Source: Candidatus Muiribacterium halophilum
GTDB taxonomy: Bacteria > Muiribacteriota > Muiribacteriia > Muiribacteriales > Muiribacteriaceae
Length of the DNA: 33,956 nucleotides
Reading direction: 5' to 3'
NCBI GenBank assembly: GCA_002869225.1
Contig: PKTG01000042.1
Location: 1 to 33,956 of the forward strand
In this document: one piece after another, positions 10,302-31,599 of the stretch
How the letters are laid out: each line of letters starts with the position of its first letter
Numbering within the stretch: the first letter of the stretch is position 1
Notes under the pieces: model-generated
What the model saw: the letters and a program-made list of their open reading frames with translations, nothing else
Told to the model about the DNA's origin: nothing
Databases searched by the model: none
Made by a program: the position numbers and the translations under genes

Positions 10302-10314
10302 GATTATAAAATCT

Positions 10315-10343
10315 GTGAATGGTGAAAAGTGAGTAGTGAATAG
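10315..10343 (-). repeat. TTCAC-type short dispersed repeat
   Basis: On the minus strand this reads as spaced copies of TTCAC or CTCAC (CTATTCACTACTCAC, then TTTTCACCATTCAC). The same motif chain occurs in the gaps at 15769-15800, 27883-27911 and 28021-28087. Confidence 0.6.
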
Positions 10344-10383
10344 ATAAAATCTGGAAATAGAGAAAAATCGGATTTTGGAATGG

Positions 10384-10490: not shown

Positions 10491-10506
10491 AGACATTCTG
10501 CTGTTG

Positions 10507-10670
10507 ACAACCAAGGGTTGTGTATTCACCATAAATAATGGTGAAATGCTTTTGTTTCACAAAAGTGTCTAAACTCTTGCCAAAAGCAAGCACATGAACA
10601 AAAGTTCATCATCCTTTTTTCGTTAGAGAAAATATATTAGCGTATGCTAATTAACAACAGCGAAGCTGTT
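10507..10670. repeat. Chain of seven short hairpins (array A)
   Basis: Seven successive perfect inverted repeats with 3-5 base loops. Arms: ACAACC/GGTTGT (10507-10521), TTCACCAT/ATGGTGAA (10525-10545), CTTTTG/CAAAAG (10549-10565), CTTGC/GCAAG (10576-10590), ATGAAC/GTTCAT (10594-10609), ATTAGC/GCTAAT (10636-10651), AACAGC/GCTGTT (10656-10670). Read on the minus strand, five of these align one to one with array B at 31486-31580, with the same linker lengths. The last arm touches the -24 box of the moxR promoter. Confidence 0.8.
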
Positions 10671-10686
10671 TGGCACGATTTTTGTA
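10670..10686 (+). promoter_or_regulatory. Putative -24/-12 (sigma-54-like) promoter of moxR-batAB
   Basis: TTGGCACG followed by ATTT and TTGTA: the GG (10672-10673) and the G of the -12 element (10684) are 12 bases apart, the canonical sigma-54 spacing. The -24 half is a perfect match; the -12 half has TTGT instead of TTGC. The moxR ATG is about 46 bases further on. The same pattern precedes batC at 28095-28111. Confidence 0.5.
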
Positions 10687-10731
10687 TTTGATATTAATGA
10701 AGAAAATTTTAATGAATCTTTGGAGGTATAT

Positions 10732-11715
10732 ATGGACCTTGTCAGAATGAATGAAGAAATTAGAGAGAAGTCTTTATTTATTGACAACATCAGTCAGGAA
10801 GTTGGAAAAGTAATTATAGGACAGAATAAGATGATTGACGCAATAATAATGGCCTTTTTATGTAAAGGTCATATTCTTCTTGAAGGAGTTCCGGGTTTGG
10901 CTAAAACTCTTACGATAGAGACGATAGCTAATATAATGGATCTTTCTTTCAAGAGAATACAGTTTACACCAGATCTGCAGCCGGCTGACCTAATAGGTAC
11001 ACTTATCTATAATCAGAAGAAAGCTGAATTTGAAGTAAGCAAAGGACCAATATTTGCAAATATTATTCTCGCTGATGAGATCAACAGAGCTCCGGCCAAA
11101 GTTCAGAGTGCACTTCTTGAAGCGATGCAGGAAAGGCAGGTAACTATTGGTAATGAGACTTTTAAACTACCTGAACCGTTTTTAGTATTGGCAACTCAGA
11201 ATCCACTTGAACAGGAAGGTACATATCCACTTCCTGAAGCACAGGTTGACAGATTTCTTATGAAAGTGATAGTTGATTATCCTAGCAAACAGGAAGAGAA
11301 AGAGATAATCAAGAGAATGAGTATAACACAGGATTTTGATCTTAATAAGATAGTTAAGAAAGAAGAGATCATCAGAGCGACTAAGGATGTTGAAAGTGTA
11401 TATATAGATGAAAAAGTAGTTGATTATATTATTGATTTGGTCTTTTCAACAAGGAAGCCAGGAGATTATAAACTGGAAAAATTTGAAAACTTTATTAATT
11501 ATGGTGGTTCTCCAAGAGCTTCTATCAACCTTACAAGATTAGGTAAAGCATATGCTTTTATAAAACACAGAGGTTACGTAACTCCAGAGGACATAAAGAA
11601 CATATCCTATGATGTTCTAAGACATAGAATAATTCCAACTTATGAAGCCGAAGCTGAGGGTTATTCATCGGAGATGATAATAAAAGAGATACTAGATACT
11701 ATTCAAGTCCCTTAA
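10732..11715 (+). CDS. moxR: MoxR-family AAA+ ATPase
   Basis: 327 residues from ATG 10732; GGAGG at 10722-10726 with five bases of spacing fixes this start over a TTG 12 bases upstream. Walker A GVPGLAKT is at about 52-59 and Walker B ILADEIN at about 112-118, followed by the family-typical RAPAKVQSALLEAMQERQVT, TQNPLEQEGTYPLPEAQVDRF and the C-terminal GGSPRASINL. MoxR ATPases act as chaperone-like partners of VWA-domain proteins, here the DUF58, BatA and BatB products encoded directly downstream. First gene of the bat half-operon; the DUF58 gene follows 12 bases after the stop. Confidence 0.93.
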   Translation: MDLVRMNEEIREKSLFIDNISQEVGKVIIGQNKMIDAIIMAFLCKGHILLEGVPGLAKTLTIETIANIMDLSFKRIQFTPDLQPADLIGTLIYNQKKAEFEVSKGPIFANIILADEINRAPAKVQSALLEAMQERQVTIGNETFKLPEPFLVLATQNPLEQEGTYPLPEAQVDRFLMKVIVDYPSKQEEKEIIKRMSITQDFDLNKIVKKEEIIRATKDVESVYIDEKVVDYIIDLVFSTRKPGDYKLEKFENFINYGGSPRASINLTRLGKAYAFIKHRGYVTPEDIKNISYDVLRHRIIPTYEAEAEGYSSEMIIKEILDTIQVP

Positions 11716-11727
11716 GGAGTGTTTTTC

Positions 11728-12585
11728 ATGGAAATAACTGAATTGATGAAAAAAGTGAGAGCAATTGAAATAAAGACTAATAAACTTGTTCAGGAACTTT
11801 TTGGTGGACAATATCATTCAGCATTCAAAGGAAAAGGCATGGAGTTTGCTGACCTTAGAAATTATGAAGCAGGAGATGACTTCAGATCAATAGACTGGAA
11901 ATCTACAGCAAGATTTAATACCCCATATGTCAAGATGTATGAAGAAGAGCGTGAGTTAACTATAATGCTTCTTCTTGATGTAAGTAGTTAAATGGATTTT
12001 GCTTCCAAACATTCCGGTAAAAATGATATTTCTGCAGAAATAGCTGCGCTTGTAGCTTTTTCAGCAATGAGAAACAAAGATAAAATAGGTGCACTTCTTT
12101 TTTCAGACACAGTTAAAGATTATATAAGACCTGGAAAAGGTCTTGCTCATTCACTACATATTATAAGAGATATAATTGCATCTGATTACAAGGGAAATAA
12201 TACTGATATAAATCAGGCACTTGATTATCTTATGAGAATTCAGAAGAAAAGATGTGTTGTTTTTCTTATATCTGATTTTATTGGAAGTATAGATTTTAAA
12301 AAACTAAATATAATAAGTAAAAAACATGATCTTATAGGAATAAGAATAAAAGATATACTGGAAGAGAAACCACCTGAATTTTTCTATGGTAGTTTTTTAG
12401 ATTCTGAATCTCAAGAGGCCGTGGCTGTTTCTATGGGAGATAATCTTGAGTATGTCTCAAAGGATGAACAATTAGAAAAGTTATTTAATAAAGAAATCAA
12501 GAAAAGAGGAATAGATATTGTTAATATATATACAGACTCTGATTATATAAAAGAGATGAGATTATTTTTTAAAAATAGGATATAA
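11728..12585 (+). pseudogene. DUF58 (VWA-like) protein split by in-frame TAA
   Basis: From ATG 11728 (AAGGAG at 11714-11719) the frame reads the DUF58 signature GMEFADLRNYEAGDDFRSIDW up to LLLDVSS, then TAA (11989-11991, codon 88). It continues in the same frame as MDFASKHSG through LLFSDTVKDYIRPGKG to a stop at 12583-12585, 285 sense positions in all. The TAA sits at the third serine of the DxSxS-like motif expected there (DVSS then MDF), which suggests TCA changed to TAA. ATG follows the stop directly (TAAATG), so termination-reinitiation could in principle make an 87-residue and a 197-residue piece, but no ribosome site precedes the second. It lies between moxR and the BatD-like gene, the usual place for DUF58. 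Confidence 0.85.
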
Positions 12586-12596
12586 AGGAGAAAAAG

Positions 12597-13481
12597 ATGA
12601 CACTAAAAAAAGATACAACGATCTTCCTTATCCTGATATTTATTTGTTTTATGTCGTATTCTCAAGTGTCTTTTTATGTTGATACTAAGGAAACACAGGT
12701 TGGGGAGACCGTACATATAATATCAGATCTATCAGAAGGACAGAGTTTAATTCTGTCAGATGATCAGAATGTAGACAATATCGCGATATTAAATGAAAAA
12801 AATGAAAACAGGCAATATATTCTTGATATACTGCCTCTTGGCGAAGGTGATTTCAGTATAGCACCGATAAGGTTTGAGCTTGATGAAAACGGAGATACAA
12901 GTGAGGTCTTCTCTCCAACGTTTGAGGTCAATCTTATTTCAATAATAAAGGAACCGGAAGGTACGAAAGAAACACAGATGCGGCCAGATGTCCCGTTCAA
13001 AAAACTAAAAGATAAATGGAATCCGATCTTCTGGTCATTTTTAATGTTTTTGATTATTGTTGTCATAGCTATCCTTGCATATCTTCTAAATAAAAAAGGC
13101 AAACAGATTGTTTTTGGAAAGACAAAGGAACCTGCACATGTTATAGCAAAAAGACTACTAGAAGAACTTAAGTTGAAAAATTATCTTGAAAACAACAAAC
13201 AAAAAGCTTTCTGTGTAGAATTGTCGTTTATTATAAAATCCTATATTCACAATCGATTTGAATTAGATATAGTTGAGATGACCACAGATGAGATCTCCAG
13301 GTTATTTTCTGATAAAAGAGGAATACTTCCAGATAATGTTAAGATGATCGATTATTTTAGAAAGATGGATCTGGTCAAATTTGCGAAATATCATCTTAAA
13401 GATGAGATCTTGATAGAAATATTTGAATTTACAAGAGAATTTGTTAAAAAGACCGAGGTGAAAAACGATGAGATTGCTTAA
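12597..13481 (+). CDS. BatD-like membrane protein of the first bat half-operon
   Basis: 294 residues. Signal peptide to about residue 22 (FICFMSYSQ), then a periplasmic beta-rich domain with an LPLGEGDFSIAPI motif as in BatD repeats, one membrane segment at about 143-165, and a cytoplasmic helical domain containing EMTTDEI and DLVKFAKYH. The same layout is found in proteins encoded between DUF58 and batA in other bat operons. It would present a periplasmic domain and an inner domain near the VWA proteins; its exact role is unknown. Ribosome site AAAGGAG is 7 bases before the ATG. The end overlaps batA by 14 bases. Confidence 0.75.
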   Translation: MTLKKDTTIFLILIFICFMSYSQVSFYVDTKETQVGETVHIISDLSEGQSLILSDDQNVDNIAILNEKNENRQYILDILPLGEGDFSIAPIRFELDENGDTSEVFSPTFEVNLISIIKEPEGTKETQMRPDVPFKKLKDKWNPIFWSFLMFLIIVVIAILAYLLNKKGKQIVFGKTKEPAHVIAKRLLEELKLKNYLENNKQKAFCVELSFIIKSYIHNRFELDIVEMTTDEISRLFSDKRGILPDNVKMIDYFRKMDLVKFAKYHLKDEILIEIFEFTREFVKKTEVKNDEIA

Positions 13482-14427
13482 TCCTTATTATCTTTTACTT
13501 TTGATACCTGTCTGTTTCTTTTTATATTTGAAATATAAAAGGTTGGAAAATAGATTGAAAATACCATCCTTAAATGGATTTAAAGAAAATAAGACGTTAA
13601 GTATCTCAAGCTATATATTTAGAGCTTTGATATTCATCTGTATTATAATTGCGATCTCAAGACCACAACATTACAAGGAAAGAGAAGTGTTTTATGGACA
13701 GGGCATCGATATTATGATAGCTCTTGATACATCAAGCAGTATGCTGGCAGAGGATTTTAAACCAAACAGACTGGAAGCTGCCAAAGATGTTATCAGAGAT
13801 TTTGTTGAAGAGAGAAAAAATGACAGAATAGGTTTGACTATTTTTGCTGCAAAATCAATTAATCGAATCCCGTTTACTGCTGATTATGATCTGCTTGAGA
13901 AATTCTTAGAGGATATTACTTTTTATATGCTTCCGGATGGTACAGCTATCGGCACAGCAATAGCAAATTCATTATCCAGACTAAAAGAGAGCCAGGCCAA
14001 ATCCAAAGTCATAATATTGTTAACGGATGGAGTCAATAATGCGGGTCAGGTATCTCCGGAAGCTGCTGCTGAGACAGCCAAGGATATAGGCGTAAAGATA
14101 TATACTATTGGTGTGGGCACAGAAGGAAAAGCTTATTCCCTTGTTAAGACTCCTTTAGGTATGAAAAGAGTCCCTATTTCAACTGAGATAGATGAGAAGC
14201 TTCTTAGGAAGATATCAGATGAGACCGGCGGGAAATATTATAGGGCAACTGATAATGAAAAGTTAAAAGATATATTTGAAGAAATATCAAAACTTGAAAA
14301 GACAAAGATAGAATCTGAATTATTCTCTATAACAAAAGAATATTTTCAATACTTTCTTATAATCGCTTTGATAATGTATCTTCTTGAAATATTTATTTTC
14401 GACTTTATTTTAAGAAGGATACCATAG
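13468..14427 (+). CDS. batA: BatA, membrane-anchored VWA-domain protein
   Basis: 319 residues. Two N-terminal membrane segments (about 5-22 and 49-64), a VWA domain, and a C-terminal membrane segment (about 292-314). The MIDAS metal site is complete: D87-T-S89-S-S91, T159 in DGTAIGTA and D187 in LLTDGVNNAG. Bat proteins are linked to aerotolerance and stress resistance in Bacteroides and to fitness in other anaerobes, acting with the MoxR ATPase. This is one of two VWA genes of the locus and the only one that is intact. batB follows after 8 bases. Confidence 0.92.
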   Translation: MRLLNPYYLLLLIPVCFFLYLKYKRLENRLKIPSLNGFKENKTLSISSYIFRALIFICIIIAISRPQHYKEREVFYGQGIDIMIALDTSSSMLAEDFKPNRLEAAKDVIRDFVEERKNDRIGLTIFAAKSINRIPFTADYDLLEKFLEDITFYMLPDGTAIGTAIANSLSRLKESQAKSKVIILLTDGVNNAGQVSPEAAAETAKDIGVKIYTIGVGTEGKAYSLVKTPLGMKRVPISTEIDEKLLRKISDETGGKYYRATDNEKLKDIFEEISKLEKTKIESELFSITKEYFQYFLIIALIMYLLEIFIFDFILRRIP

Positions 14428-14435
14428 GAGGGCAC

Positions 14436-15455
14436 ATGCTTGATATATTTAAAAATGTAGAATATTTATCGTTTATAGTCTTGGTGCCTCTTATTATATT
14501 GATGTTTGTGTGGGTATATTTTAGAAAAAATAAGTATATTTCAAAATATTTTACAGCTGAAAATTTCTTTAAATATTCAAAATTCAAAGTGAAAATAAAC
14601 ATTATTATAAGAGCTACTTTTGCTTCCCTGTTTATATTGTTTATCACAATATCTTTAGCAAGACCAGGTTGGGGTAGAAAACCTGTTCATATAAAAAGGG
14701 AAGGATCGGATGTGATCATTGCTATAGATATTTCAAAAAGTATGAATGCTCAGGATATAAAACCTTCCAGATTTTTTAGAGTAAAACAAGCCGTAAAAGA
14801 CCTTCTGAAAAATTTGAAAGGTGATCGTGTGTAGCTTGTCTTTTTTGGTGGAGATGCTTTTGTGATGATCCCATTTACTCTAGATTATTATACAGTTTCG
14901 TTGGCTCTAGATAATCTTTAACCGCAGGATTTTCCAATGCCTGGAACTAATTATGGAAACTTGTTTATTAAAGTGAAAGATATGCTTCAAAGGTCAAACT
15001 CTGCAAGCAAGATGATGTTGATATTTTCAGATGGAGAAGATCTTGAGAAGACAGAGGATGCTTTTTTAAAACTACCTGATACAAAGGTTTATACAATAGG
15101 TGTAGGTACTAAAAAAGGTGATGTAGTACCTGAATTTGATGATAAAGGTAATAAGACAGGAGTAAAAAAACATAATGATGAGATAGTGATGTCAAGACTT
15201 GAAGAAGAAAATATTTCAAGAATAGCCAGATTAAACTCAGGAAAATATATGAGATTATCATACGATCTTTCTGAGATACCTTTAATATTAAATGATCTTT
15301 CTGAGATGAAAAAAGCTCCTCTTGATATAAGTGAAAAAGACAGAATAATAGAGAGGTATATATTTTTCCTATGGCCTGCGTTTTTGTTTCTTCTTATAGA
15401 GACTTTATTTGTAAATTATTCACCGGTTTTTAAATTCAATAAAAGCTCTATGTAA
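14436..15455 (+). pseudogene. batB: BatB, VWA-domain protein interrupted by two in-frame stops
   Basis: AGGAGGG precedes ATG 14436. The frame runs through N-terminal membrane segments (about 11-28 and 58-74) and the MIDAS start D98-I-S100-K-S102 to KGDRV, then TAG (14832-14834, codon 133). It goes on in the same frame LVFFGGDAFVMIPFTLDYY to LALDNL, then TAA (14919-14921, codon 162), then PQDFPMPGTNYGN and FSDGEDLE to the true end at 15455, with a C-terminal membrane segment. The total of 339 positions is the usual BatB length and no frameshift is needed. The sequence between the stops is fully conserved in character, so the damage is recent or is sequence error. As read, no functional VWA domain can be made. 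Confidence 0.88.
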
Positions 15456-15512
15456 CTTAATTTAGAAAGTCAGAGCATCATCTAATCAAGTTTAATCACT
15501 TCTCTATACTTA

Positions 15513-15668
15513 GCTTCGCTGGTATTTCGAAGCGATTCTCCTTGATCCGGTATGATTGACTTTCTTGCCTAAGCTCTCACTTCAGCTTAACCATTTGAGA
15601 AATCATCCAGAATTTCTCTGCATTATTTTCAAAAACGATAGCACATCGTGTGTAGGTGTTTTTGAAAA
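15513..15668. repeat. Intergenic hairpin chain C (four inverted repeats)
   Basis: The gap 15456-15883 (428 bases) holds no gene. Inverted repeats: GCTTCG/CGAAGC (15513-15533, 9-base loop), TAAGCT/AGCTTA (15570-15589), GAGAAAT/ATTTCTC (15597-15618), and an 11-bp arm TTTTCAAAAAC/GTTTTTGAAAA (15626-15636 and 15658-15668) whose loop contains CACA/TGTG. The segment ATAGCAC followed by GTTTTTGAA is shared with 27965-27985. None is followed by a T-run directly. Confidence 0.65.
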
Positions 15669-15768
15669 TTTAATTGCTTTCGTTTTTATTTTAGTCCTTG
15701 TCAACGTTTCTGCAATCTATCTATGTTAGTGCTGTACCTTCCTGGTTATGCTTTTTATCCTGATTTTT

Positions 15769-15800
15769 CTATTCACTATTCACATCTCACAATTCACAGT
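15769..15800 (+). repeat. TTCAC-type short dispersed repeat
   Basis: CTATTCACTATTCAC followed by ATCTCACAATTCACAG; the same motif chain as at 10315-10343 (inverted), 27883-27911 and 28021-28087. Confidence 0.6.
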
Positions 15801-15883
15801 TATTTTCTTTATTACATACACGAAATATGATATATTATTCAAGGATTTTATAATTGTATTTTCTAATGAAAACGGGGTATTAA

Positions 15884-16732
15884 ATGTCTTTTTCAAAAAG
15901 ATACGGCTTTAAAGAAGATGATATAATATATCAAAAAGAAGGTATGTCAAAAGATCTAAGGAACTCACTTTGGAATGCCCTTGATGAGACCTACTGGTCT
16001 AAGATGCAAGGTCATAAATATCTCACTGAAAATCAGGATATGGAATTTCTTTTTACAAGACTTTGGAGAGACTTTTTCAAATATGATATTGATACTCTTA
16101 ATAATTTCTGGAAAGACCTTCATGTAAAGATAAGAAATCATTTTCAAAGTGCTCAGTGGTTTGAGATATACGATCTCATTGAGTTTGTTAGTAATAATTT
16201 CCCATTGGATAAAGAGGAGAGTAACAAAAAATTTAAAAAGATCTGTAATTTTTATCTCGAAAGAGAAAAATCAGCATATAGATTTATTGGCAACAATGTA
16301 GTTGAGACAACTTCAGAGATGGAGATCAAAGAGATAGAAAAGCTCCTGAAAAGAGAAGACCTGATAAATGAGATAGGTAAAGATATAAAAAAGGCCAGTT
16401 CGTTTATATTTAATCAAAGAGAAAATTCAGATTTCAAAGAACCAATAATGCTTATTACAAAAGCTTTTAATGAGTTTGAGAGATTCATGGATATGAATAT
16501 CAGTCTTCCTGTTCTTGAATTTGAAGAGAAGATCGAGCATATACTTAAGGATACACCTGAAATAGATAAACTGGTGCTATGTATAAGGGATATGTTTGTT
16601 AAACTAAAGGAAATAAATGAAAGCGATATACCTGTATCGGGCAAGATAGAGTATGAGGATGTTAGATTTATTCTGGTACAGACCGTGACATATATGAATT
16701 TCTTTTTACAAAAGATGTCAAAGGACCATTGA
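15884..16732 (+). CDS. AbiJ N-terminal domain 4 (AbiJ-NTD4) protein
   Basis: 282 residues. The first about 150 match the AbiJ-NTD4 pattern: FSKRYGF at the start, GMSKDLRNSLWNAL, and YRFIGNNVVETTSEMEIKEI near 137-156. That domain is found at the front of abortive-infection/HEPN-type proteins. The C-terminal half has the expected helical layout (ITKAFNEFERFMDMN), but I do not see the GIRH-like HEPN motif; the corresponding place reads LCIRDMFVKLKEI. So nuclease activity is doubtful. It stands alone between repeat-filled DNA and gpmA, with G-rich AACGGGG before the start. A single-gene phage-defence role is possible but unproven. Confidence 0.65.
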   Translation: MSFSKRYGFKEDDIIYQKEGMSKDLRNSLWNALDETYWSKMQGHKYLTENQDMEFLFTRLWRDFFKYDIDTLNNFWKDLHVKIRNHFQSAQWFEIYDLIEFVSNNFPLDKEESNKKFKKICNFYLEREKSAYRFIGNNVVETTSEMEIKEIEKLLKREDLINEIGKDIKKASSFIFNQRENSDFKEPIMLITKAFNEFERFMDMNISLPVLEFEEKIEHILKDTPEIDKLVLCIRDMFVKLKEINESDIPVSGKIEYEDVRFILVQTVTYMNFFLQKMSKDH

Positions 16733-16769
16733 TTATAATAAATAATAGGAATTAAATAGAGGAGGATCT

Positions 16770-17513
16770 ATGATAAAACTAGTATTATTAAGGCATGGAC
16801 AATCTGTTTGGAATCTTGAAAATCTTTTTACAGGTTGGACTGATGTTGACCTTACAGAAAGAGGAGTAAAAGAAGCTATAAATGCAGGAAAAACATTAAA
16901 AGAAGAAGGATACACCTTTGATAAGGTATACACTTCTGTCTTAAAAAGAGCAATAAAGACTCAATCAATGGCTATGGAAGAGATGGATCTTTTATGGGTT
17001 CCTGTTGAAAGAGCCTGGGAACTTAACGAAAGACATTATGGAGCTCTTCAGGGACTAAATAAATCAGAGACTGCGAAAAAATATGGAGAGGAACAGGTTC
17101 TTATTTGGAGAAGAAGTTACGATGTACCACCTCCAGCACTTGAAGAAGATGATGATAGATTTCCAGGAAAAGATCCAAGATATGCTGGACTTTCATCTGA
17201 TCAGCTACCTCTAACTGAAAGCTTAAAGCTTACCTTGGAAAGAGTACTACCTTATTGGAATGAAAAGATAGTACCTGATCTTAAAGCAGGTAAGAAACTT
17301 CTTATTGCTGCCCATGGGAATAGTTTAAGAGCTATAGTGAAACATCTTGATAATATGGCTGAGGATGAAATCACAAAACTAAATATACCTACAGGTATGC
17401 CTCTTGTATATGAACTTGATGATCAGCTTAAGCCTATTAAAAAGTATTATCTTGCTGATGAAGAGACAAGAAAAAAGGCGGAAGCAGAAGTAGCTAATCA
17501 GGGTAAAGGTTGA
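16770..17513 (+). CDS. gpmA: 2,3-bisphosphoglycerate-dependent phosphoglycerate mutase
   Basis: 247 residues. The phosphohistidine motif [10 protein letters not shown] carries H9; [12 protein letters not shown] carries E87; AAHGNSLRA carries the second histidine H182. It interconverts 3- and 2-phosphoglycerate in glycolysis and gluconeogenesis. Length and motifs are those of the full-size dPGM family rather than small broad-specificity phosphatases. GGAGG lies 6 bases before the ATG. tyrA follows after 7 bases, so both are probably on one transcript. Confidence 0.96.
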
Positions 17514-17520
17514 TGTTGAT

Positions 17521-18477
17521 TTGAGAAAAATAGCGGTAGTAGGAACTGGACTTATGGGGACCTCATTTGGTCTCCATGTCCAGTCTTTTTATAATGATGT
17601 TTATCTACTGGGATATGATAAAGACCCTAAACAAAGTGAAAATGCATTGAAAATTGGTGCGTTCTCCCGTATCGTTGATTCTCTAACTGAACTAAAAGGG
17701 TGTGAGTTTATCTTTGTATGTTGTCCTTTAAAATATGCATCTGAGACAATTGAAAGACTATTTGAAATAGTAGATGAATCTACCATTATAACCGATATCT
17801 CTTCTGTAAAATCTCAGATATGTAAAAGATTTGCAGATAAAAAGAATTTTTTGGGTGGACATCCTATGACAGGATCAGAAAGACAAGGTGCACTGGCAGC
17901 TCAGGCAGAGATCTTTGATAATTCATTGTATATACTTTGTCCGGAAATAAATCAGGAATTATCCTGTAAAAAGATACAGATTTTTCTCGAGAAGATGAAT
18001 ATAAAGATATATAAGATGAAGCCTTCTATACATGATCGTGTCGTTGCTATGGCAAGTCATCTTCCATATTTTGTTGCGACAACTCTGGTCAACAGTATGG
18101 ACGGTGAACTTTTTGAACACATCTCATCCGTTGCAGGGAGTGGTTTCAGAGATACAAGTAGAGTAGCATCTTCACCAGGTAAGATGTGGGATATTATTTC
18201 AAAAGAAAATAGCGAGAATATATTAGAAGCTATAAATATTTTTAAAGAAAGACTTGATGAGACGACTGTATCTATAAAAAAGGAAAATACTTTAGATATA
18301 TCTGATAAAGAAAAAAGACTTAGGGATAGTATAGTTGAGAACAGATTAGCAGGAAGCGGAGAAAGTATGCTTACGATCGATGTTCCTGATAGACCTGGAG
18401 TCCTATCAAATATATTCAATCTGCTTGAGAACATAAATATTAAAAACATAGAGATCGAGGATTCGCGTGAATATTAG
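17521..18477 (+). CDS. tyrA: Prephenate dehydrogenase, ACT domain cut by in-frame TAG
   Basis: TTG start at 17521 (an upstream ATG is out of frame); AAAGG lies 11 bases before it. Residues 8-13 (GTGLMG) form the NAD-binding loop, GGHPMTGSE holds H114, and ASHLPYF follows at about 178-184. The enzyme makes 4-hydroxyphenylpyruvate for tyrosine synthesis. The ACT regulatory domain begins near residue 282 (LTIDVPDRPGVLSNIF) and is stopped by TAG at 18475-18477 (codon 319). In the same frame the domain continues TGSLRVFFRTTEDKKKAEHLL to TGA at 18562-18564. The catalytic part is intact, so a truncated enzyme may be active but lack feedback control; GAG to TAG is a simple origin. Confidence 0.88.
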   Translation: MRKIAVVGTGLMGTSFGLHVQSFYNDVYLLGYDKDPKQSENALKIGAFSRIVDSLTELKGCEFIFVCCPLKYASETIERLFEIVDESTIITDISSVKSQICKRFADKKNFLGGHPMTGSERQGALAAQAEIFDNSLYILCPEINQELSCKKIQIFLEKMNIKIYKMKPSIHDRVVAMASHLPYFVATTLVNSMDGELFEHISSVAGSGFRDTSRVASSPGKMWDIISKENSENILEAINIFKERLDETTVSIKKENTLDISDKEKRLRDSIVENRLAGSGESMLTIDVPDRPGVLSNIFNLLENINIKNIEIEDSREY

Positions 18478-18588
18478 ACTGGATCATTAAGGGTCTTCTT
18501 TAGAACTACTGAAGATAAAAAGAAAGCAGAACATCTATTGAAAAGTTCAGATATTTTTAATTGATCAGTTATTTTAAAAGGGGGAGTT

Positions 18589-20578: not shown

Positions 20579-20600
20579 TGAATCAAAGGTTGTTATTAGT

Positions 20601-23715: not shown

Positions 23716-23731
23716 TTCAGGGAGTAGTTTT

Positions 23732-24748
23732 ATGAAAAAGATCGATTTAGAAAGAATAAAAGATATACTTGAAACTTTTAAAGATAGAAAAATTCTCGTT
23801 TACGGTGATCTTATGATCGATGAGTTTATTTTTTCTGATGTTAAGAGAATTTCTCCCGAAGCTCCTGTTCCTGTTGCTGAAGTAATTGAAAAGAACTATA
23901 GATTAGGTGGCGCTTCTAACGTTGCTGCAAACATAGTATCTCTAGGTGGTAAAGCTTGTATGGCAGGACTTGTAGGTGATGATGGATTTGGAAGATTATT
24001 TTCAGAAAGTGCATCGGAGCAGGGAATAGACGTCTCCTGCATAGTAAAGGATGAAGACAGACCAACCACCGTCAAGACAAGAATACTTGCCCAGAATCAG
24101 CAGATAGCAAGAGTGGATAGTGAGAAACGTCATGCTATGAGCCACGAAATAAAAGAAAAGATGAAAAGAAAACTCTCTGAAAATATAGATAAATATGAAG
24201 CTGTAATTATATCCGATTATGCAAAAGGTGCGTTTAATATAGATATCTCAGATTTTATAAAAAATATTTGTAATCAAAAAGGTATAATTACCGCGGTAGA
24301 TCCTAAGATAAGATCAGAAGAACTATACAGTGGTATAGATTATCTCAAGCCAAACTTAAGAGAAGCTCAGATGCTCGCCGGCCTTGAGATAAAAGATGAA
24401 GATTCACTACAGCTGGCAGGCAAAACTTTACTTGAAAGGATGAAAGCAAAAGTCGTTGTCCTTACAAGGGGAAAAGATGGAATATCTGTTTTTCAAAAAG
24501 ATAAAAGATTTGATATTCCTACACAGGCTAGAAAAGTCTATGATGTTACTGGAGCAGGTGATACCACAATAGCTACCTTGATTATGGCAATACTTTCAGG
24601 AGCCGATATAATGGAAGCATCTCTTATAGCTAATATCGCTGCAGGAATAGTAGTTGGGGAAGTTGGTACTGCAAAAGCTACATGCGATGATATACTTTCT
24701 CATTGTAGTGAATATGAGGAGGAAATATGTTGTTTTCAGAAAAAATAA
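23732..24748 (+). CDS. rfaE1: D-glycero-beta-D-manno-heptose-7-phosphate kinase
   Basis: 338 residues from ATG 23732 (GGGAG 7 bases before); a TTG 30 bases upstream is less likely. PfkB family: GGASNVAANIVSLG near 59-72, KPNLREAQML and the catalytic GAGD at 274-277. It corresponds to the kinase half of HldE; the adenylyltransferase half is the separate gene at 25277. The reaction gives heptose-1,7-bisphosphate. It overlaps gmhA by 22 bases. Confidence 0.94.
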   Translation: MKKIDLERIKDILETFKDRKILVYGDLMIDEFIFSDVKRISPEAPVPVAEVIEKNYRLGGASNVAANIVSLGGKACMAGLVGDDGFGRLFSESASEQGIDVSCIVKDEDRPTTVKTRILAQNQQIARVDSEKRHAMSHEIKEKMKRKLSENIDKYEAVIISDYAKGAFNIDISDFIKNICNQKGIITAVDPKIRSEELYSGIDYLKPNLREAQMLAGLEIKDEDSLQLAGKTLLERMKAKVVVLTRGKDGISVFQKDKRFDIPTQARKVYDVTGAGDTTIATLIMAILSGADIMEASLIANIAAGIVVGEVGTAKATCDDILSHCSEYEEEICCFQKK

Positions 24749-25284
24749 TATCCCTGTTTGAAAAAAAAGACAGTATAATGAAACTCGAAGATGATGTTCA
24801 AAGTATAATAAACGATATTGTCAAAGCTTATAAAGAAAATAAAAAAGTCATAGTATTTGGAAATGGCGGGTCCGCTTCCGATGCTCTTCATATGTGTGCT
24901 GAGCTTCAGGGACGATTTTTTCTTGATAGGAAAGGGCTTGGAGCTATTTGTCTTAATACAAATGTATCTACTATGACAGCTGTTGGAAACGATCTGGGAT
25001 TTAACGAGATATTTAAAAAACCACTCGAAGGACTCTTAAATCAGGGTGATATAGTGATAGGAATATCAACAAGTGGTAATTCCGAAAATGTAATGCGTGC
25101 GATCGAATATGCAAATGATAATGGTGGGAAGTGTTTTACTTTGACAGGCAAAGATGGAGGAAAGCTTAAAGATATATCCGATTGTCTTATAGCTCCATCT
25201 GATATAACACCTGAGATTCAGGAGATACATATAATGATAATCCATTATATCTGTATGAGAGTTGAGGAGATACTTTTTGGATAA
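24727..25284 (+). CDS. gmhA: Phosphoheptose isomerase (sedoheptulose-7-phosphate isomerase)
   Basis: 185 residues, SIS fold: [21 protein letters not shown] (44-64) with H55 and E59, [11 protein letters not shown], and late [13 protein letters not shown], all GmhA signatures. First step of ADP-heptose synthesis. GGAGG before ATG 24727. It overlaps both neighbouring heptose genes. Confidence 0.95.
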
Positions 25285-25756
25285 TAATTACTTTGAAGCT
25301 TCACAAATTTCAAAAAGGCTTAAGGAAGATAATAAAAAGATAGTCTTTACAAATGGTTGCTTTGATATCATTCATGCCGGTCATATAGATTATCTAAAAA
25401 AAGCATCACAGCTTGGAGATGTTCTTATAATTGGCTTGAATTCTGATAATTCGGTAAAAAGATTAAAAGGACAGGATAGACCAATTAATAACGAGAATGC
25501 AAGAAGACTAGTCCTCGAAGGGATCAAAGGTGTCTATAAAGTGCTTCTTTTTGAAGAAGACACACCAGCTGAACTTATAGATAAAGTAAGGCCAGATATA
25601 CTTGTAAAAGGTGGAGATTATAAAGTGGATGAAGTCGTAGGAAAGGATATTGTGGAGAAAAACGGTGGCGAAGTCGTTATAATTCCTTTTCTTGATGGAT
25701 ATTCTACTACCTCTATAATAGAAAGGATAAACAGGGTCTATGGCAAAAAGAGATAG
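25277..25756 (+). CDS. rfaE2: Heptose-1-phosphate adenylyltransferase
   Basis: 159 residues if TTG 25277 is the start; AGGAG at 25265-25269 gives 7 bases of spacing, better than the TTG at 25262. Nucleotidyltransferase fold: [16 protein letters not shown] with the HxGH motif, [12 protein letters not shown] and the closing [10 protein letters not shown]. It is the adenylyltransferase half of HldE as a separate protein and makes ADP-D,D-heptose. The HldD epimerase is not in the window. Confidence 0.94.
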
Positions 25757-26864
25757 ACGATTTTTTAAGGATAATTTTCCTGCACTTAGGAATAGTATGT
25801 ATTTAAATACCGGCTCTGAAGGTCTTATCCCAAGAGAAACGTATAAACAAATAAACAAACTTATTAAGAGAAATTTTAAATATGGAGGTTCCCATCCTCA
25901 TTTTTATGATATGGTGAACTTTAACTTTTCAAAAATACCACATTATTTAAAGCTACTGGGAGTGGATCCTGAAAAACAAATAAGAGTGTCTTCTGTTTCG
26001 GAAGGTCTAAATTTTTGTTTTAATATGCTTTCCAATAACAATATAAAAAAGATTCTTCTTCTTAAAGATGAGTTTAAGACTGGTATACTTGCTTCTTATG
26101 CCTTTGCTGAAAAAAATAAAGCGAAACTTATATGGGCTGATGATCTTGATGATTATTATAAACGTTTGAAAACAGACAAACCTGATATTGCCATAATGTC
26201 GCATGTTGATTACAGAGATGGGAAGGATAATAATATTGAAAGATTTTACTCTGAATGTAAGAAAAACAATGTTTTTTTTATAGTTGATGGAGCTCAGGCT
26301 ATTGGTAATCTTTTTATAAGATTTCCTCAGGAGATACATGCAGATCTCTATGTATGGACAACTCATAAATGGTTATGTAGTCCAAGAGGGTTAGGATTCA
26401 TAAACGTATCTCAGAGGATAAAGGATAGTATAGGCCCACTTGGATATCATTATTTTGCAACAGAGGTCTTTCGACCACCTGAGATCAAAATAATAGATAG
26501 TATGGATTCGATGTCTGTACATGCGGCTAATTTTATTGGAGAGATCGGTTTTGTCTCCAGTATGCGATTTCTTGATAAAAAGATTGGAATCGATAATATA
26601 TTGAAGATAAATGAGGATAATAAGAATTATTTTTATAAAGTAGCAGAAAAGAACTCTATAAAAGTCGAAGTTTCTGATACAAATCTATTAAGTATAAAGG
26701 TGGATGAACCGGAAAAGGTTGTTGAGGCAATGCTTAGAAGAAAGATCTTAATCAGATCAATACCTGACACCGAATATATAAGAGTATCGATTCATTTATA
26801 TAATAATAAAAAAGATATTGATGTCTTTTTTAAAAATCTTAATCAGATCTTGGGGGAAAAATGA
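25740..26864 (+). CDS. Class V aminotransferase (PLP-dependent), substrate unknown
   Basis: 374 residues, fold type [12 protein letters not shown] near the start, VDGAQAIGN with D183 for the PLP ring nitrogen, and [14 protein letters not shown] with the Schiff-base lysine K210. The class includes cysteine desulfurases, isopenicillin-N epimerase-like proteins and kynureninase. No cysteine-loop of an IscS/SufS enzyme was evident at the C-terminus, so sulfur transfer is not implied. It overlaps the heptose adenylyltransferase by 17 bases and the PPC-domain gene by ATGA. Confidence 0.82.
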
Positions 26865-27277
26865 TTTGGAAAAAAGTAGATGATGGATTTTATCTTGTCT
26901 TTGAACCTGGAGACAAAGTTATCGAGAGTTTTACAAAGTTCTGTAAGGATCATCACCTGAGAACAGGTATATTTAGTGGTATAGGTGCTTTTTCAAAAAT
27001 TACACTTGGACATTATAATATTACTACAAAAAGATATATGGAAAAAGACGTAAGTGATAGTCTGGAAGTGTTAAGTGTTAACGGTAATGTAACTATTAAA
27101 GAAAAAGAGCCTTTTGTTCATATGCATGCAATAGTATCTGATGCTAATATGAACTTCTATGGTGGTCACGTAATAGAAGCAGAGGTATCTGTAACACTTG
27201 AATTACATGTAACAGATTTTAGAGAGACTCTTCATAGAGAGTTCGATGAAGAGCTTGGTCTTTTTACAATAAAGTAA
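26861..27277 (+). CDS. PPC/DUF296 domain protein
   Basis: 138 residues forming a single PPC (PCC) domain: LRTGIFSGIGAFSKITLGHY, then HMHAIVSDANMNFYGGH with H87, H89 and H103 as likely metal ligands. The domain occurs alone in bacteria and archaea, and in plants with AT-hooks; the bacterial function is not settled. Last gene of the long plus-strand run, followed directly by a terminator. Confidence 0.88.
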   Translation: MIWKKVDDGFYLVFEPGDKVIESFTKFCKDHHLRTGIFSGIGAFSKITLGHYNITTKRYMEKDVSDSLEVLSVNGNVTIKEKEPFVHMHAIVSDANMNFYGGHVIEAEVSVTLELHVTDFRETLHREFDEELGLFTIK

Positions 27278-27309
27278 AAAAAAGCCCTCTTTTGAGGGCT
27301 TTTTTTTTA
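27278..27309. terminator. Bidirectional rho-independent terminator
   Basis: AAAGCCCTC (27281-27289) pairs with GAGGGCTTT (27294-27302) around a TTTT loop, flanked by A-run and T-run on both sides. It ends the plus-strand run at the PPC gene and the minus-strand peroxiredoxin gene. Confidence 0.95.
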
Positions 27310-27321
27310 TTCTTCTTATCT

Positions 27322-27771
27322 TTAACTGCAGGCTTTGATTATCTCGTCTATTGGTGGTAATTGTGGTATATCATATACTTTGACAAACAATACTTTTCCT
27401 TCCTCGTCAACTATTACATTTGCTCTCTGGGTAAAACCTTCTGTTTCTCTGAACAGACCAAGTTTATTAGCATATCCACCGTGTGGCCAGAAATCTGATA
27501 ACATCTGAAGTTTTTCTATACCAATATGTTTTGCCCATGCGTTTTTACAAAAAGTGGAATCTATACTAAGACCAAAACAAACCGTGTTTAATTCATCAAA
27601 TTTGTCAAGATTGTTTTCTATAGAAAGCATCTGATCCTTACAGACTGGGGTCCATGCGAGTGGATGAAATGAAAGAAGAACCTTTTTCCCTTTTAATGAA
27701 TTGGAATCAACATCGTTTCCTTTATGGTCCTTTAATATCATCTGTGGTAATTTATCGCCTACTTTGATCAT
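27322..27771 (-). CDS. Peroxiredoxin (AhpC/TSA family)
   Basis: 149 residues from the ATG at 27769-27771: GGAGG lies 5 bases before it, and the ATG 12 bases upstream would put that site inside the gene. The peroxidatic motif is LAWTPVCKDQM with C44. A further Cys in STFCKNAW and one near the end (KACS) could resolve. Reduces peroxides using a thiol donor and fits an oxygen-sensitive lifestyle together with the nearby Bat genes. Shares the bidirectional terminator with the PPC gene. Confidence 0.93.
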   Translation of the reverse strand: MIKVGDKLPQMILKDHKGNDVDSNSLKGKKVLLSFHPLAWTPVCKDQMLSIENNLDKFDELNTVCFGLSIDSTFCKNAWAKHIGIEKLQMLSDFWPHGGYANKLGLFRETEGFTQRANVIVDEEGKVLFVKVYDIPQLPPIDEIIKACS

Positions 27772-27821
27772 CTTTTCCTCCATTTATGGTGATATTTTAA
27801 TGCAACTTTTGTACTCATTAC

Positions 27822-27851
27822 AGTATATCATATAAACCTTTGAAGAAACAA
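27822..27851 (-). promoter_or_regulatory. Possible sigma-70-like promoter of the peroxiredoxin gene
   Basis: On the minus strand TTGTTT (27846-27851) and TATACT (27822-27827) are 18 bases apart, about 50 bases before the start codon. The match is moderate. Confidence 0.4.
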
Positions 27852-27882
27852 TATATAAAGTGTTAAGCGTGAAGCGTGTTTT

Positions 27883-28087
27883 CTTCTCACCATTCACTAT
27901 TCACTTCTCACTGTCTTTTAGGGATTTTACCTAAATCAACTGGGAAAAATACGCATTTATAAAAATAGCACTGTATCGTTTTTGAAGTTAAGACGTTAGT
28001 TTTGTTTAAAAGTTTATTGTTTTTCACTTTACGCATCACACTTTACCCTTCACGTTTATTTATGTTCTTACTATTTACTATTCACTG
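27883..28087. repeat. Mosaic of dispersed intergenic repeats
   Basis: The 374-base gap 27772-28145 has no gene. It contains TTCAC chains (27883-27911 and 28021-28087), the TTTTAGGGATTTTACCTAA module (27916-27934, arms TTTAGG/CCTAAA around GATTTTA) followed by a stretch similar to 10457-10490, and ATAGCAC...GTTTTTGAA (27965-27986) shared with 15638-15666. These are the same modules as in the gaps at 10.3 kb and 15.6 kb, in a different order. Confidence 0.65.
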
Positions 28088-28094
28088 CTTTTAA

Positions 28095-28111
28095 ATGGCA
28101 TAGAATTTGTA
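28095..28111 (+). promoter_or_regulatory. Putative -24/-12 (sigma-54-like) promoter of batCDE
   Basis: TGGCATAG, AAT and TTGTA: the GG (28097-28098) and the -12 G (28109) are 12 bases apart, as before moxR. Matches are TGGCA in the -24 box and TTTGTA in the -12 box. The batC ATG follows 35 bases later. Weaker than the moxR site, but the shared layout supports it. Confidence 0.4.
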
Positions 28112-28145
28112 TATGTTTTAATGAAATGGAAGATTGGAGGAAGTT

Positions 28146-28943
28146 ATGAAAAAGATATTGTTTTTTTTAATTATCAATGTTATTTCTTTTAATATATTTT
28201 CAATAGATCTAAATCCATATAAACAACATTATAGAGATTATCAGGAATCCATAAAACAGATACAGAAAAAAGATACCGATAAAGCTACCGAATATATGAT
28301 TGATGCATTAGAGAAGGCTGAAGCAAAAAAACTGGATGACGTTGATGCTTTAAGTTTTAACGTTGGAAATCTAATGAAACAAAAGGGTGATAAAGAAAAA
28401 GCAGAAGATTATTATAACAATGCTTTAAACGGTTTTTCAGATAACAAGGATAAAGCAGATACTCTTTTTAATCTGGGAAACATGTATTTCAAAGATAACA
28501 AACTAAAAGAAGCAATAGAATCTTATGTTCATTCATATAAACTTAATCCTACTGAGGATCTTAAGTATAATCTTAATCTTGCAATAAAAAAATTAAAACA
28601 ACAAAAACAGGATCAGAAACAAAACGAGGATAATGATAAAAAGAATAAGAAAGATCAGGATAAAGATAAACAGAATAAAAATGATAAGAATAATGAAAAG
28701 GATAAGGATAAGGAAAAGCAGGATAAAGGACAAAAACAGGATAAAAAACAACAGGACAAAGATAAAGATGATAAAAAGGATAATCAACAGCAAAAAGATA
28801 ACGAATCACAACAGCAAAAAAAAGAAGAAAAATACAATCAACAACAGGTGATAAAAAACGCAGATCAACAGGAAAAAGAAGCTCTAAAACAGTTTATAAA
28901 AAAAGAGCTTGGTGAGGTGAGATCAAATGGTAAAGATTGGTAG
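28146..28943 (+). CDS. batC: BatC, TPR protein with charged C-terminal region
   Basis: 265 residues from ATG 28146; GGAGG at 28136-28140 favours it over the TTG 12 bases upstream. Signal peptide to about residue 19, TPR-like repeats (ALSFNVGNLMKQKGDKEKAEDYY and ADTLFNLGNMYFKDNKLKEAIESY regions, about 68-140), then a long K/D/Q/N-rich low-complexity stretch (about 150-230). This is the typical BatC layout, thought to form periplasmic protein contacts in the Bat complex. It overlaps batD by 17 bases. Confidence 0.82.
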   Translation: MKKILFFLIINVISFNIFSIDLNPYKQHYRDYQESIKQIQKKDTDKATEYMIDALEKAEAKKLDDVDALSFNVGNLMKQKGDKEKAEDYYNNALNGFSDNKDKADTLFNLGNMYFKDNKLKEAIESYVHSYKLNPTEDLKYNLNLAIKKLKQQKQDQKQNEDNDKKNKKDQDKDKQNKNDKNNEKDKDKEKQDKGQKQDKKQQDKDKDDKKDNQQQKDNESQQQKKEEKYNQQQVIKNADQQEKEALKQFIKKELGEVRSNGKDW

Positions 28944-30696
28944 AAAAAGTCTTTTTTTAATAGCAGTATTATTATTATATGTATCGGCAATCGCTGGGGT
29001 TAGTGCCCAGCTTTTCCTTGATCAAAGGGAAGTCGTCAAGGGAAGGGCTTTTAAGTTCACTATAGAAGTCAAAGGTGATATATCTAATGTGTCTACGCCG
29101 GATATAACTGTTCCCGATAGTGTAAGAATAATCTATCAATCAAAAAACCAAAGTATAAATATTGTAAACTGGGAAAAGTCTGTTTCTCATTCCTATATTT
29201 ATAGTGCTATTGCGTTAAAAGAAGGTGACTTTTCTATAGGACCGGTAAGTCTAAAAGTCGATGGTAAGGATGTTAAAATAAAAGCTGAAGATATTAAAGT
29301 AGTGAAAACACCATCAGGTAATGATATAAAAGGTGGTTCTTCAAATGACGATAGAAACGTGCTTTCCTGGATTAAAATCGACAAAGATAGATGCTATGTC
29401 GGCGAACAGATACCTGTAAAAGTCATATTTGCATACAGAGATACAAGGGTAAGAAATCTTGGCTTTGAACCACCAAAGGATCTAAAGGATTTTATTACCT
29501 ATGATAGAGATGAGAAACAATACACAGCAGAGGTAAAAGGAAAAAGATATAACATACTACAACTTACCTATCCTTTGATACCTTTAAGGACCGGGAAGTT
29601 TGTTTTTGATGATGCACAAATAACATATGATGTGATAAAGACGTCTTCCAATTCAGGACCAAGATCGATGTTTGATGATTCTTTCTTCGATGATTTTTTT
29701 AATCCTTTTGATGTTGAAAAGAGAATACTTATACCGGATGCGGCTACTGTTGAAGTAGTCTCGGTACCAGATGCCCCCCCTGATTTTTCAGGTGGAGTCG
29801 GTAATTTTGTAATATCAGTGAAAAAAGATAACTCCCAGAAGATACAGGGAGAGCCATTTGAACTTGAATTGGTGATAAACGGGGTAGGTAATATAGATAA
29901 TATAAGCAAACCTATCTTTAATATAAGTGATGATTACAGTATTTCCTTTACAGGTGAGAAAAAAGATACAAAGATAGTAAATGGAAAGATAACAGGAAGT
30001 AAAAAATTCTCATATGTTGTAATACCTGAAGAATCCGGAAATATAAAAATAGATCCAGCAAAATTCGTATATTTTGATCCTGACAAAGATGAGTTTATAA
30101 CTATAAAGAGTGACGAGCTCAACATTAAAGTAAAAGCTAATAAAGATTTTGTTAAAAAACAAAACACTCTAAGGGATTTTTCAGATGTTAAGACGGATAT
30201 GTCCGAGCAGGCAGTATCTACAGGTGCTGATATAGAGTTTATTTTTACAAAGAAAGGTATTTTCTATGATGGCATAAGAAAGATCCTCCTTTATCTTAAC
30301 GCTTTTATGATACTGTTGTTTATTGTTTACTTTTTGAGTCAAAATATTATTTCCTATTTCAAGAGTTCCCATGAAGTAAGACTTTCAAAGACAATAAAAA
30401 GATTAGAGATGGGATTTGAAAATGGCAGTTTTTATAAAGATTTTTCGAACATATACTTGTCTTATCTATCGGATCTACTCAATCTGAAGGAAAATAAAAA
30501 TATAGCTTCCAGAATAATGGAAGAGCTCCATATAAGGATAAAAGATAAAAAACTACTTGATGAACTTAAGGAGTTTAAGGATAAGATGGAATTAAAAGCC
30601 TATAGTGGAATGGCTTTCAATGCTAAAGAAGAAGATCTTAAGATAGCTGTTGATCTTTTAAGAAAGATAAGTTCTAAAGTCAGGAGGTCAAAATGA
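28927..30696 (+). CDS. batD: BatD, oxygen-tolerance membrane protein
   Basis: 589 residues. Signal peptide to about residue 27 (GVSAQ), then repeated beta-sandwich units with the family phrases LKEGDFSIGPV (about 97-107) and VVIPEESGNIKIDPAKF, a membrane segment at about 456-478 and a cytoplasmic helical tail that contains MAFNAKEEDL. It resembles the shorter BatD-like protein at 12597, so the two half-operons each carry one. It couples to batE by ATGA overlap. Confidence 0.88.
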   Translation: MVKIGRKSLFLIAVLLLYVSAIAGVSAQLFLDQREVVKGRAFKFTIEVKGDISNVSTPDITVPDSVRIIYQSKNQSINIVNWEKSVSHSYIYSAIALKEGDFSIGPVSLKVDGKDVKIKAEDIKVVKTPSGNDIKGGSSNDDRNVLSWIKIDKDRCYVGEQIPVKVIFAYRDTRVRNLGFEPPKDLKDFITYDRDEKQYTAEVKGKRYNILQLTYPLIPLRTGKFVFDDAQITYDVIKTSSNSGPRSMFDDSFFDDFFNPFDVEKRILIPDAATVEVVSVPDAPPDFSGGVGNFVISVKKDNSQKIQGEPFELELVINGVGNIDNISKPIFNISDDYSISFTGEKKDTKIVNGKITGSKKFSYVVIPEESGNIKIDPAKFVYFDPDKDEFITIKSDELNIKVKANKDFVKKQNTLRDFSDVKTDMSEQAVSTGADIEFIFTKKGIFYDGIRKILLYLNAFMILLFIVYFLSQNIISYFKSSHEVRLSKTIKRLEMGFENGSFYKDFSNIYLSYLSDLLNLKENKNIASRIMEELHIRIKDKKLLDELKEFKDKMELKAYSGMAFNAKEEDLKIAVDLLRKISSKVRRSK

Positions 30697-31247
30697 CTAA
30701 AAAAAGCTTTGTAATAATGACTTTATTAATATTTCTTATCCTGACCTTTTCAAATGAGTTTGATTCTGGTGTGAAGTATTATAAAGATGGTGATTTTAAA
30801 AATGCGTTGAGTTCTTTTCAGAATATCAAACAAAAAGATAGTAGGGTGTATTTTAATATAGGTAACTGCTTCTTTAGATTAAAAAAACTTCCGGAAGCTG
30901 CAGCTTATTATCTGAAAAGTATAAGGCTGGATCCTGGACTTAAGGATGCGTTGCAGAATCTTCGTCTGATTGCCGGAGAGGATATTGTCTTTCATTCAAC
31001 TATCTTTATACCATTTCCGAGAAGTGCAGTTTATACTGTTAATCTATTATTTCTTTTTATTTTGCTTCTATTTACCTTTGTAAAGTTAATCAAAAAGAAA
31101 AAAGGAATATCACATGTTCAGATTACGATAGCTGTTTTGACAATAATTTTATCGTTTTATTCATTGTTTGCTTATGTGAACTCTCTTAAGGAGTTTGCTG
31201 TAATAAATCAACATTCAGAGGTCCTTAGTTCCCCTTCAAGTGATTGA
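30693..31247 (+). CDS. batE: BatE, TPR membrane protein; C-terminal SH3 part cut off by TGA
   Basis: 184 residues to TGA 31245-31247. Signal peptide or first membrane segment at the start, a TPR region with YFNIGNCFFRLKKLPEAAAYYLKSIRLDPG, then two membrane segments (about 114-130 and 143-162). The same frame continues after the TGA as VQIAEVFAGNVMYVEIRGKNY and ISGWMKNSELIFIE to TAA 31383-31385, which is an SH3-like domain as found at the end of BatE proteins. A full gene would have 230 residues. GGA or TCA to TGA is a one-base change. The truncated protein may still be inserted in the membrane. Confidence 0.82.
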   Translation: MTKKSFVIMTLLIFLILTFSNEFDSGVKYYKDGDFKNALSSFQNIKQKDSRVYFNIGNCFFRLKKLPEAAAYYLKSIRLDPGLKDALQNLRLIAGEDIVFHSTIFIPFPRSAVYTVNLLFLFILLLFTFVKLIKKKKGISHVQITIAVLTIILSFYSLFAYVNSLKEFAVINQHSEVLSSPSSD

Positions 31248-31390
31248 GTTCAAATAGCAGAGGTGTTTGCAGGAAATGTTATGTATGTTGAAATAAGAGG
31301 TAAAAACTATAGTAAGATAAAGAATCATCAAGGAATATCCGGTTGGATGAAAAATTCAGAGCTGATATTTATAGAAGATCTATAAAAGTC

Positions 31391-31437
31391 GGGTCTGGCT
31401 GATCCTGAGCTTAAACTTACAAAGCTCAGCCTGACCC
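31391..31437. repeat. Large imperfect hairpin after batE
   Basis: GGGTCTGGCTGA...GCTT pairs with AAGCTCAGCCTGACCC with one mismatch and a six-base bulge (TCCTGA) in the left arm. It follows the batE remnant by 5 bases, but on the plus strand no T-run follows, so it is not a typical intrinsic terminator; a short T-run follows on the minus strand. Confidence 0.55.
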
Positions 31438-31485
31438 AAAACAACATTAAAATGTCCTGTTAGAGGTAAGTTGTTAAATTCACCA

Positions 31486-31599
31486 GAACAAAGTTCGTGT
31501 GCTTTCTTTCAGAAAGAGTTAAAACCCTTTTGTGAAACAAAAGCATTTCATCGAAGATGAACACATAACCGAAAGGTTATCATCGGCACCTAAAGGTGC
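31486..31599. repeat. Chain of six short hairpins (array B)
   Basis: Arms: GAAC/GTTC (31486-31496), CTTTCT/AGAAAG (31502-31516), CTTTTG/CAAAAG (31527-31543), TTCATC/GATGAA (31547-31561), ATAACC/GGTTAT (31565-31580), GCACC/GGTGC (31586-31599). Loops are 3-5 bases. The first five correspond in order to array A read on the minus strand; linkers of 5, 10, 3 and 3 bases are the same. It lies in the gap 31386-31783, which has no gene; the remainder up to the glutamine synthetase is AT-rich. Confidence 0.8.

Follow-up and report, generated by a model that had tools for sequence, protein, structure and literature searches.

Arrays A and B, two rows of short hairpins in the window analysed here (the whole 33,956-nt stretch of contig PKTG01000042.1 of Candidatus Muiribacterium halophilum), were found to be two of about 41 separate places at which one repeat family is dispersed through this genome, counted after overlap removal with the covariance models R1 (left half, hp1-hp5) and R2 (right half, hp5-hp8). 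The preliminary description had known of two copies, which proved too few. We consider it rather probable that the arrays represent a dispersed, non-coding, REP/BIME-like family of inverted half-chains, the arms of which would be kept up by template switching together with selection, and which mostly lies in sense behind stop codons and often carries cap hairpins.

Structure and position of arrays A and B

A full element is built of 8-10 short hairpins, always in the same sequence and arranged as two mirrored half-chains of 4-5 hairpins round a short centre. Array A, read on the minus strand, extends from 10488 to 10670 with 8-9 hairpins in all, and array B, read on the plus strand, ends at 31599 and has a left half without the two outer hairpins. 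The hairpins are as follows.

10656..10670, minus strand: array A hp0, outer hairpin and copy-specific cap, AACAGC/GCTGTT, then linker GTTA
10636..10651, minus strand: array A hp1, ATTAGC/GCTAAT (consensus TTTGGC/GCCAAA)
10617..10632, minus strand: array A hp2, TTTTC/GAAAA (consensus TTTTTTC/GAAAAAA)
10594..10609, minus strand: array A hp3, ATGAAC/GTTCAT, then linker GTG
10576..10590, minus strand: array A hp4, CTTGC/GCAAG, then centre AGTTTAGACA (10566-10575)
10549..10565, minus strand: array A hp5, start of the right (mirrored) half, CTTTTGT/ACAAAAG
10525..10545, minus strand: array A hp6, TTCACCAT/ATGGTGAA
10507..10521, minus strand: array A hp7, ACAACC/GGTTGT
10488..10502, minus strand: array A hp8, AGCAGA/TCTGCT
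31486..31496, plus strand: array B hp3 remnant, GAAC/GTTC, then linker GTGTG; hp1 and hp2 are missing
31502..31516, plus strand: array B hp4, CTTTCT/AGAAAG, then centre AGTTAAAACC (31517-31526)
31527..31543, plus strand: array B hp5, CTTTTGT/ACAAAAG
31547..31561, plus strand: array B hp6, TTCATC/GATGAA
31565..31580, plus strand: array B hp7, ATAACC/GGTTAT, loop GAAA (GNRA)
31586..31599, plus strand: array B hp8, GCACC/GGTGC

The stems and the linkers of 5, 10, 3 and 3 bases reported earlier, with A on the minus and B on the plus strand, were reproduced exactly, and the hairpins named there stand; the start of array A was moved from 10507 to 10488, which the chain reaches. The strongest and longest inverted repeat in the window, 10542-10599 with 31493-31550 (58 nt, 86%), pairs array A with array B. 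When stems with at least 6 perfect pairs were counted, 423 kb of the genome contained 7 clusters of at least 4 neighbouring hairpins and a first-order Markov control contained none; as arrays A and B are among the 7, they are not a product of chance. The idea that gene ends here carry hairpin rows as a rule was rejected by the same scan and by a gene-end control. The earlier statement that both arrays adjoin the ends or starts of Bat genes is broadly right: array A, whose neighbouring genes are divergent, is upstream of the moxR/Bat operon (10720), and array B lies between the TPR gene that follows BatD and a type III glutamine synthetase gene.

Other features of the window were recorded. Positions 1-285 hold two direct repeats of 138 nt, 96% alike, with a start-to-start distance of 147 nt, and short GTGAATAGTGAATAG-type repeats occur in both orientations at 10308-10348, 15758-15808, 27879-27908, and 28060-28089. 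The interval 1702-4416 encodes an NB-ARC/TPR protein of 904 aa with a C-terminal transcription-regulator domain, and 15884-16732, inside the Bat region, encodes an AbiJ_NTD4-domain protein, possibly the product of an abortive-infection gene.

Size and distribution of the family

Model R1 detected 27 strong places and R2 added more, and BLASTN with arrays A and B found about 20 further places. All these counts refer to one genome (G000), a metagenome-type draft of 2.93 Mb in 148 contigs with 89% completeness and 4.4% contamination, and some chain places touch contig ends, as expected of a repeat. The preliminary description had proposed a covariance-model search of the genome and its relatives. 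R1 was run on 57 genomes and R2 on 287, this genome being counted in both sets and each set including 39 others of the same phylum. Copies were found only here and in none of the 286 other genomes, under the stricter filters used for searches of more than 40 genomes, which lose weak matches. R1 also found no copy in 21 genomes chosen for having the closest glutamine synthetases, for which the best full-length identity was at most 52%. The lineage is isolated, and the nearest genomes among those searched share only the phylum.

In the Rfam scan of the window, 0 matches reached the gathering threshold. Two core motifs had no match in the viral contigs scanned, and a distant search of plasmids with array B and of phages with array A was likewise negative. 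The earlier remark that no named repeat family with this layout was known to its author agrees with the empty Rfam result and with the nearest kinds of repeat (REP, BIME, and BOX), which lack it. CRISPR was rejected for want of equal repeats or spacers, and integron attC sites were rejected by layout alone.

Mirror symmetry and modular construction

The linkers of the half-chains are mirrored, as GATG, ATG, and GTG in one are the reverse complement of CATC, CAT, and CAC in the other, and the linkers between hairpins are fixed at 3-5 bases. The halves mirror each other in these linkers, not in stem sequence. Model R1 also gives matches on the other strand of these elements, offset by half a chain, and copy C46 carries right-half hairpins on both sides.

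In subfamily I, the left half in the orientation of array B runs from the cap hp0 through GATG, hp1 (TTTGGC/GCCAAA), ATG, hp2 (TTTTTTC/GAAAAAA), GGATG, hp3 (ATGAGC/GCTCAT), and GTG to hp4 (CTTTCT/AGAAAG). The centre, GGTTTAAACT, lies between hp4 and hp5, and the right half continues from hp5 (CTTTGC/GCAAAG) through CAC or CAT, hp6 (TTCATC/GATGAA or AGCCT/AGGCT), TAC, hp7 (ACAACC/GGTTGT), and CATC to hp8 (AGCAGC/GCTGCT) and the outer hairpins. Subfamily II has the linkers ATG, ATG, and ATG, the centre TGTTTCGG...CCGAGACA, and then CAT, TAT, CAACG, and TAAAC. A third type of half-chain repeats GTTA(TTG...CAA)GTTA(TTG...CAA) and was found in C108, C14, and C86. Hairpins behave as modules that can be dropped or exchanged, with exact loss of hp3 and hp4 in C116 and of hp5 and hp6 in C77 and C86.

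Several details were seen beside these patterns. GTTA-separated TTG...CAA hairpins of the third type with very different inner stems lie in L146 (1365-1470), L171 (around 19662, minus strand), and L185 (13955-14030). The right halves of L027, L028, L029, L033, and L038 share a hairpin CATC-TTGAGCgaaGCGATA-CATC. Its inner pairs covary (GC/GC, AC/GT, AT/AT) next to A·G and G·A mismatches that are conserved, an arrangement resembling a tandem GA motif. Stretches like GTGAATAGTGAATAG and repeats of CGTAAAGCGTGAAGCGAAACGGG flank several subfamily II chains (L036, L040, L042, and L143).

Covariation of the stems

Covariation is the standard proof of a selected RNA structure, and classical RNA covariation proceeds via G·U. 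In the hand-set structures, 14 of 24 pairs in the right half and 13 of 31 in the left half changed on both sides, a level that 0 of 500 shuffles reached, and the covariation was lost in slid-register controls. The statistical test proposed earlier was thereby passed far beyond chance. In 27 copies of the left half and 22 of the right half, which are related and the alignment of which was fitted to the model, the stem cells comprised 1283 Watson-Crick pairs, 15 G·T (leaving out 12 from a pseudo-pair outside the subfamily II stem), 10 A·C, and 27 others. About 96% of the stem cells were Watson-Crick and the loops varied freely, so that stems broken as often as loops change, which would have spoken against selection on structure, were not what was found.

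The kind of change was also informative. Double-compensated cells numbered 194 against 54 single-sided ones (about 3.6:1). G·T made up 1.2% of stem pairs compared with 11.5% (10 of 87) in the tRNAs of the same genome, a control of four tRNAs only (Fisher p = 9e-7, a guide only since the copies are related), and was not significantly commoner than A·C within the stems (15:10). Template switching has been proposed to create and repair hairpins, with simultaneous double change as its mark (PMC8794818). It would also be expected to leave inverted loops, and loop inversion was clear only sporadically (hp2, TTC and GAA), which counts against it. With G·T and A·C at similarly low frequency and a large excess of double over single-sided changes, the pattern bears the marks of copying between the arms no less than those of RNA selection. 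Template switching from arm to arm accounts for the covariation better than RNA selection does; selection on folded DNA would also fit the concerted stem changes, and the orientation bias and the GNRA-type loops at one hairpin, described below, hint at selection on the sense strand as RNA. The preliminary description had concluded from covariation to a selected DNA or RNA structure; the covariation stands, and the step to selection is not secure, given the similar rarity of G·T and A·C and the excess of double changes.

Genomic placement and RNA features

Predicted frames of at least 90 aa were overlapped by only 2 of the 41 chains. The chains are biased towards the sense orientation, with ratios of 24:10 for the preceding gene and 27:11 for the following one; where both flanking genes run in the same direction, both were in sense in 18 cases and antisense in 3 (p = 0.0015, a guide only, the copies being related). 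The left chain end often lies 10-30 nt past a stop codon. Exceptions are array A with its divergent neighbours, C54, which abuts the start of radA, and some copies upstream of or antisense to genes.

At hp6, 9 of 12 tetraloops were of the GNRA type when read on the sense strand and 0 on the antisense strand, and this restriction to the sense strand counts against a pure DNA view. The z-scores for RNA folding were -5.3 for array A and -2.8 for array B; the other strand of array B, folded as single-stranded DNA, gave -4.5, a comparable result against shuffles. As RNA, hp4 and hp5 of array B prefer pairing with each other. The terminator scan returned one site in array A, on the strand opposite to the reading direction of the chain, and none in array B.

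Cap hairpins derived from host sequence

A unique palindrome with a score of at least 8 stood directly before hp1 in 12 of 27 copies, compared with 0.2% of random sites, and the gap between cap and hp1 was usually exactly 4 bases (GATG). Among the 16 chains that follow a gene in sense, 7 had the cap palindrome at the stop codon, compared with 9 of 302 other gene ends (p = 2e-6, to be taken as a guide because of the relatedness of the copies). The caps are host-derived: in chains lying in sense, the left arm often holds the stop codon and the last codons of the preceding gene. Caps at gene ends include the following.

C129:8285: cap at the end of dnaA
C118:4802: cap at the end of the YicC-family gene
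C117: cap at the end of glyA
C123: cap at the end of serC
C99: cap at a gene end

The first of these belongs to chain L028 (G000:C129:8185-8285), which lies between dnaA and recF and whose cap palindrome overlaps the dnaA stop codon. The YicC-family protein matches its family model to the last residue, and the left cap arm consists of its last codons and stop; the proteins of dnaA, serC, and glyA similarly match to, or almost to, the last residue. Because proteins that contribute codons to a cap arm match their family models so far, the coding arm is probably older than the other arm. In a few cases (C86, C129:21277, and C25) the cap is an ordinary terminator. The caps would reflect either inverse copying of the flank at insertion or a preference of the element for gene-end palindromes.

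Comparison with known systems

The family is probably a new multi-hairpin variant of REP/BIME-like repeats and is predicted to be transcribed. Like the REP/BIME/REPIN repeats of the GTAG and CGTC families (PMC3733652, PMC8266576, PMC3116915), it consists of many short intergenic palindromes, mostly behind genes, with inverted pairs round a centre and conserved unpaired bases at the hairpin foot. Multiple copies are evident from the roughly 41 places, and inverted pairing from the mirrored half-chains, the opposite-strand matches of R1, and C46. However, each half contains 4-5 different hairpins instead of one, the perfect stems differ between copies, and the linkers GATG, ATG, GTG, and GTTA take the place of the foot tetranucleotide GTAG or CGTC. 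The RAYT (Y1) genes of those systems are flanked by REPs, whereas the Y1 gene here has no chain.

BOX of Streptococcus pneumoniae (PMC3049150) is likewise a modular composite repeat of about 100-200 bp, whose modules can drop out or recur and whose transcript would fold. It is composed of boxA, tandem boxB, and boxC, whereas each hairpin here has its own sequence and place, the halves are mirrored, and no tandem identical middle module was seen by eye. Template-switch hairpins (PMC8794818) share perfect stems made or repaired by inverted copying, simultaneous compensatory changes, and a host arm copied in inverted form; those are isolated mutation events, whereas here the process would maintain a dispersed family of multi-hairpin elements. 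Clustered-hairpin terminators (PMC8355165) also form hairpin rows up to 80 bases past stop codons, but they are not one repeat family and lack conserved linkers and mirror symmetry. The GC-rich hairpin and sense U-tract of an intrinsic terminator are absent from array B, and the single site in array A is antisense to the chain.

Proposed mechanism and alternative explanations

The element would have spread through intergenic regions as a non-autonomous palindromic element, its unit being a half-chain of 4-5 short perfect hairpins. The arms may be kept paired largely by copying of one arm onto the other in replication (template switching), helped by selection, as suggested by the rarity of single-sided and wobble states. 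The elements appear to settle mostly directly past stop codons, in sense with the preceding gene, and often with a cap, the pattern of which was observed directly. As RNA, the elements would fold into consecutive hairpins downstream of a gene or between two genes, which could slow RNases or help end transcription. The Y1 (IS200-like) transposase, the only one in the genome, is a candidate mover and stays only that, since no chain lies at the flanks of its gene (C17, L136 901-1878, minus strand). No target duplication, which together with terminal inverted repeats would mark a MITE, was seen in the copies read by eye.

A structured regulatory or protective RNA in 3'-UTRs or between cistrons, multiplied by duplication and kept by ordinary pairing selection with classical covariation, would account for the sense excess between co-directional genes, the left ends close behind stop codons, the sense-only GNRA loops, and the folding z-scores of both arrays. 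We regard it as unlikely, as G·T is about ten times rarer than in the tRNAs and not clearly commoner than A·C, some copies lie upstream of or antisense to genes (array A, C54 at the radA start), the other strand of array B, taken as single-stranded DNA, has a fold of similar quality relative to shuffles, and hp4 and hp5 of array B prefer each other in RNA. It is very improbable that genes here finish in rows of hairpins and that the chains are such clustered-hairpin terminators, whose similarity reflects the spread of an efficient terminator. They do sit past stop codons, termination at hairpin clusters that lack U-tracts has been reported (PMC8355165), and several chains adjoin classical bidirectional terminators (C86, C97, C96, and C25). 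However, the terminator scan found one site on the wrong strand of A and none in B, a chain occurs at only about 41 genes while 302 control gene ends have none, the 18 chains between co-directional genes would cut operons, and the conserved linkers and mirror symmetry would be left unexplained.

For the caps alone, it is possible, although doubtful, that hp0 is in each case an older palindrome of the gene end, to which the chain homed as its insertion target, an explanation compatible with the REP-like reading. Insertion of REPs into palindromes has been reported from Anabaena, Thermomicrobium, and Halothiobacillus (PMC3733652), and some caps are plainly terminators (C86, C129:21277); but among control gene ends just 3% carry such a palindrome, in several caps a U-tract is absent and one arm consists of conserved codons, and the cap stands beside the element, not around it. 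There is also a small chance that the element grows by inverse copying, in which the flank becomes the cap at each new site and then the next chain link; the row would then be a fossil record of insertion sites, and compensation would arise by mutation, not by selection.

Significance

The REP/BIME-like reading would extend this type of repeat to ordered multi-hairpin chains. The family combines strong covariation, almost no wobble intermediates, host-derived caps, and many copies in one genome, and it would allow a direct test of template switching against selection as the maker and keeper of hairpins. It is a natural test case for the spread of hairpin DNA and the upkeep of its perfect pairs.
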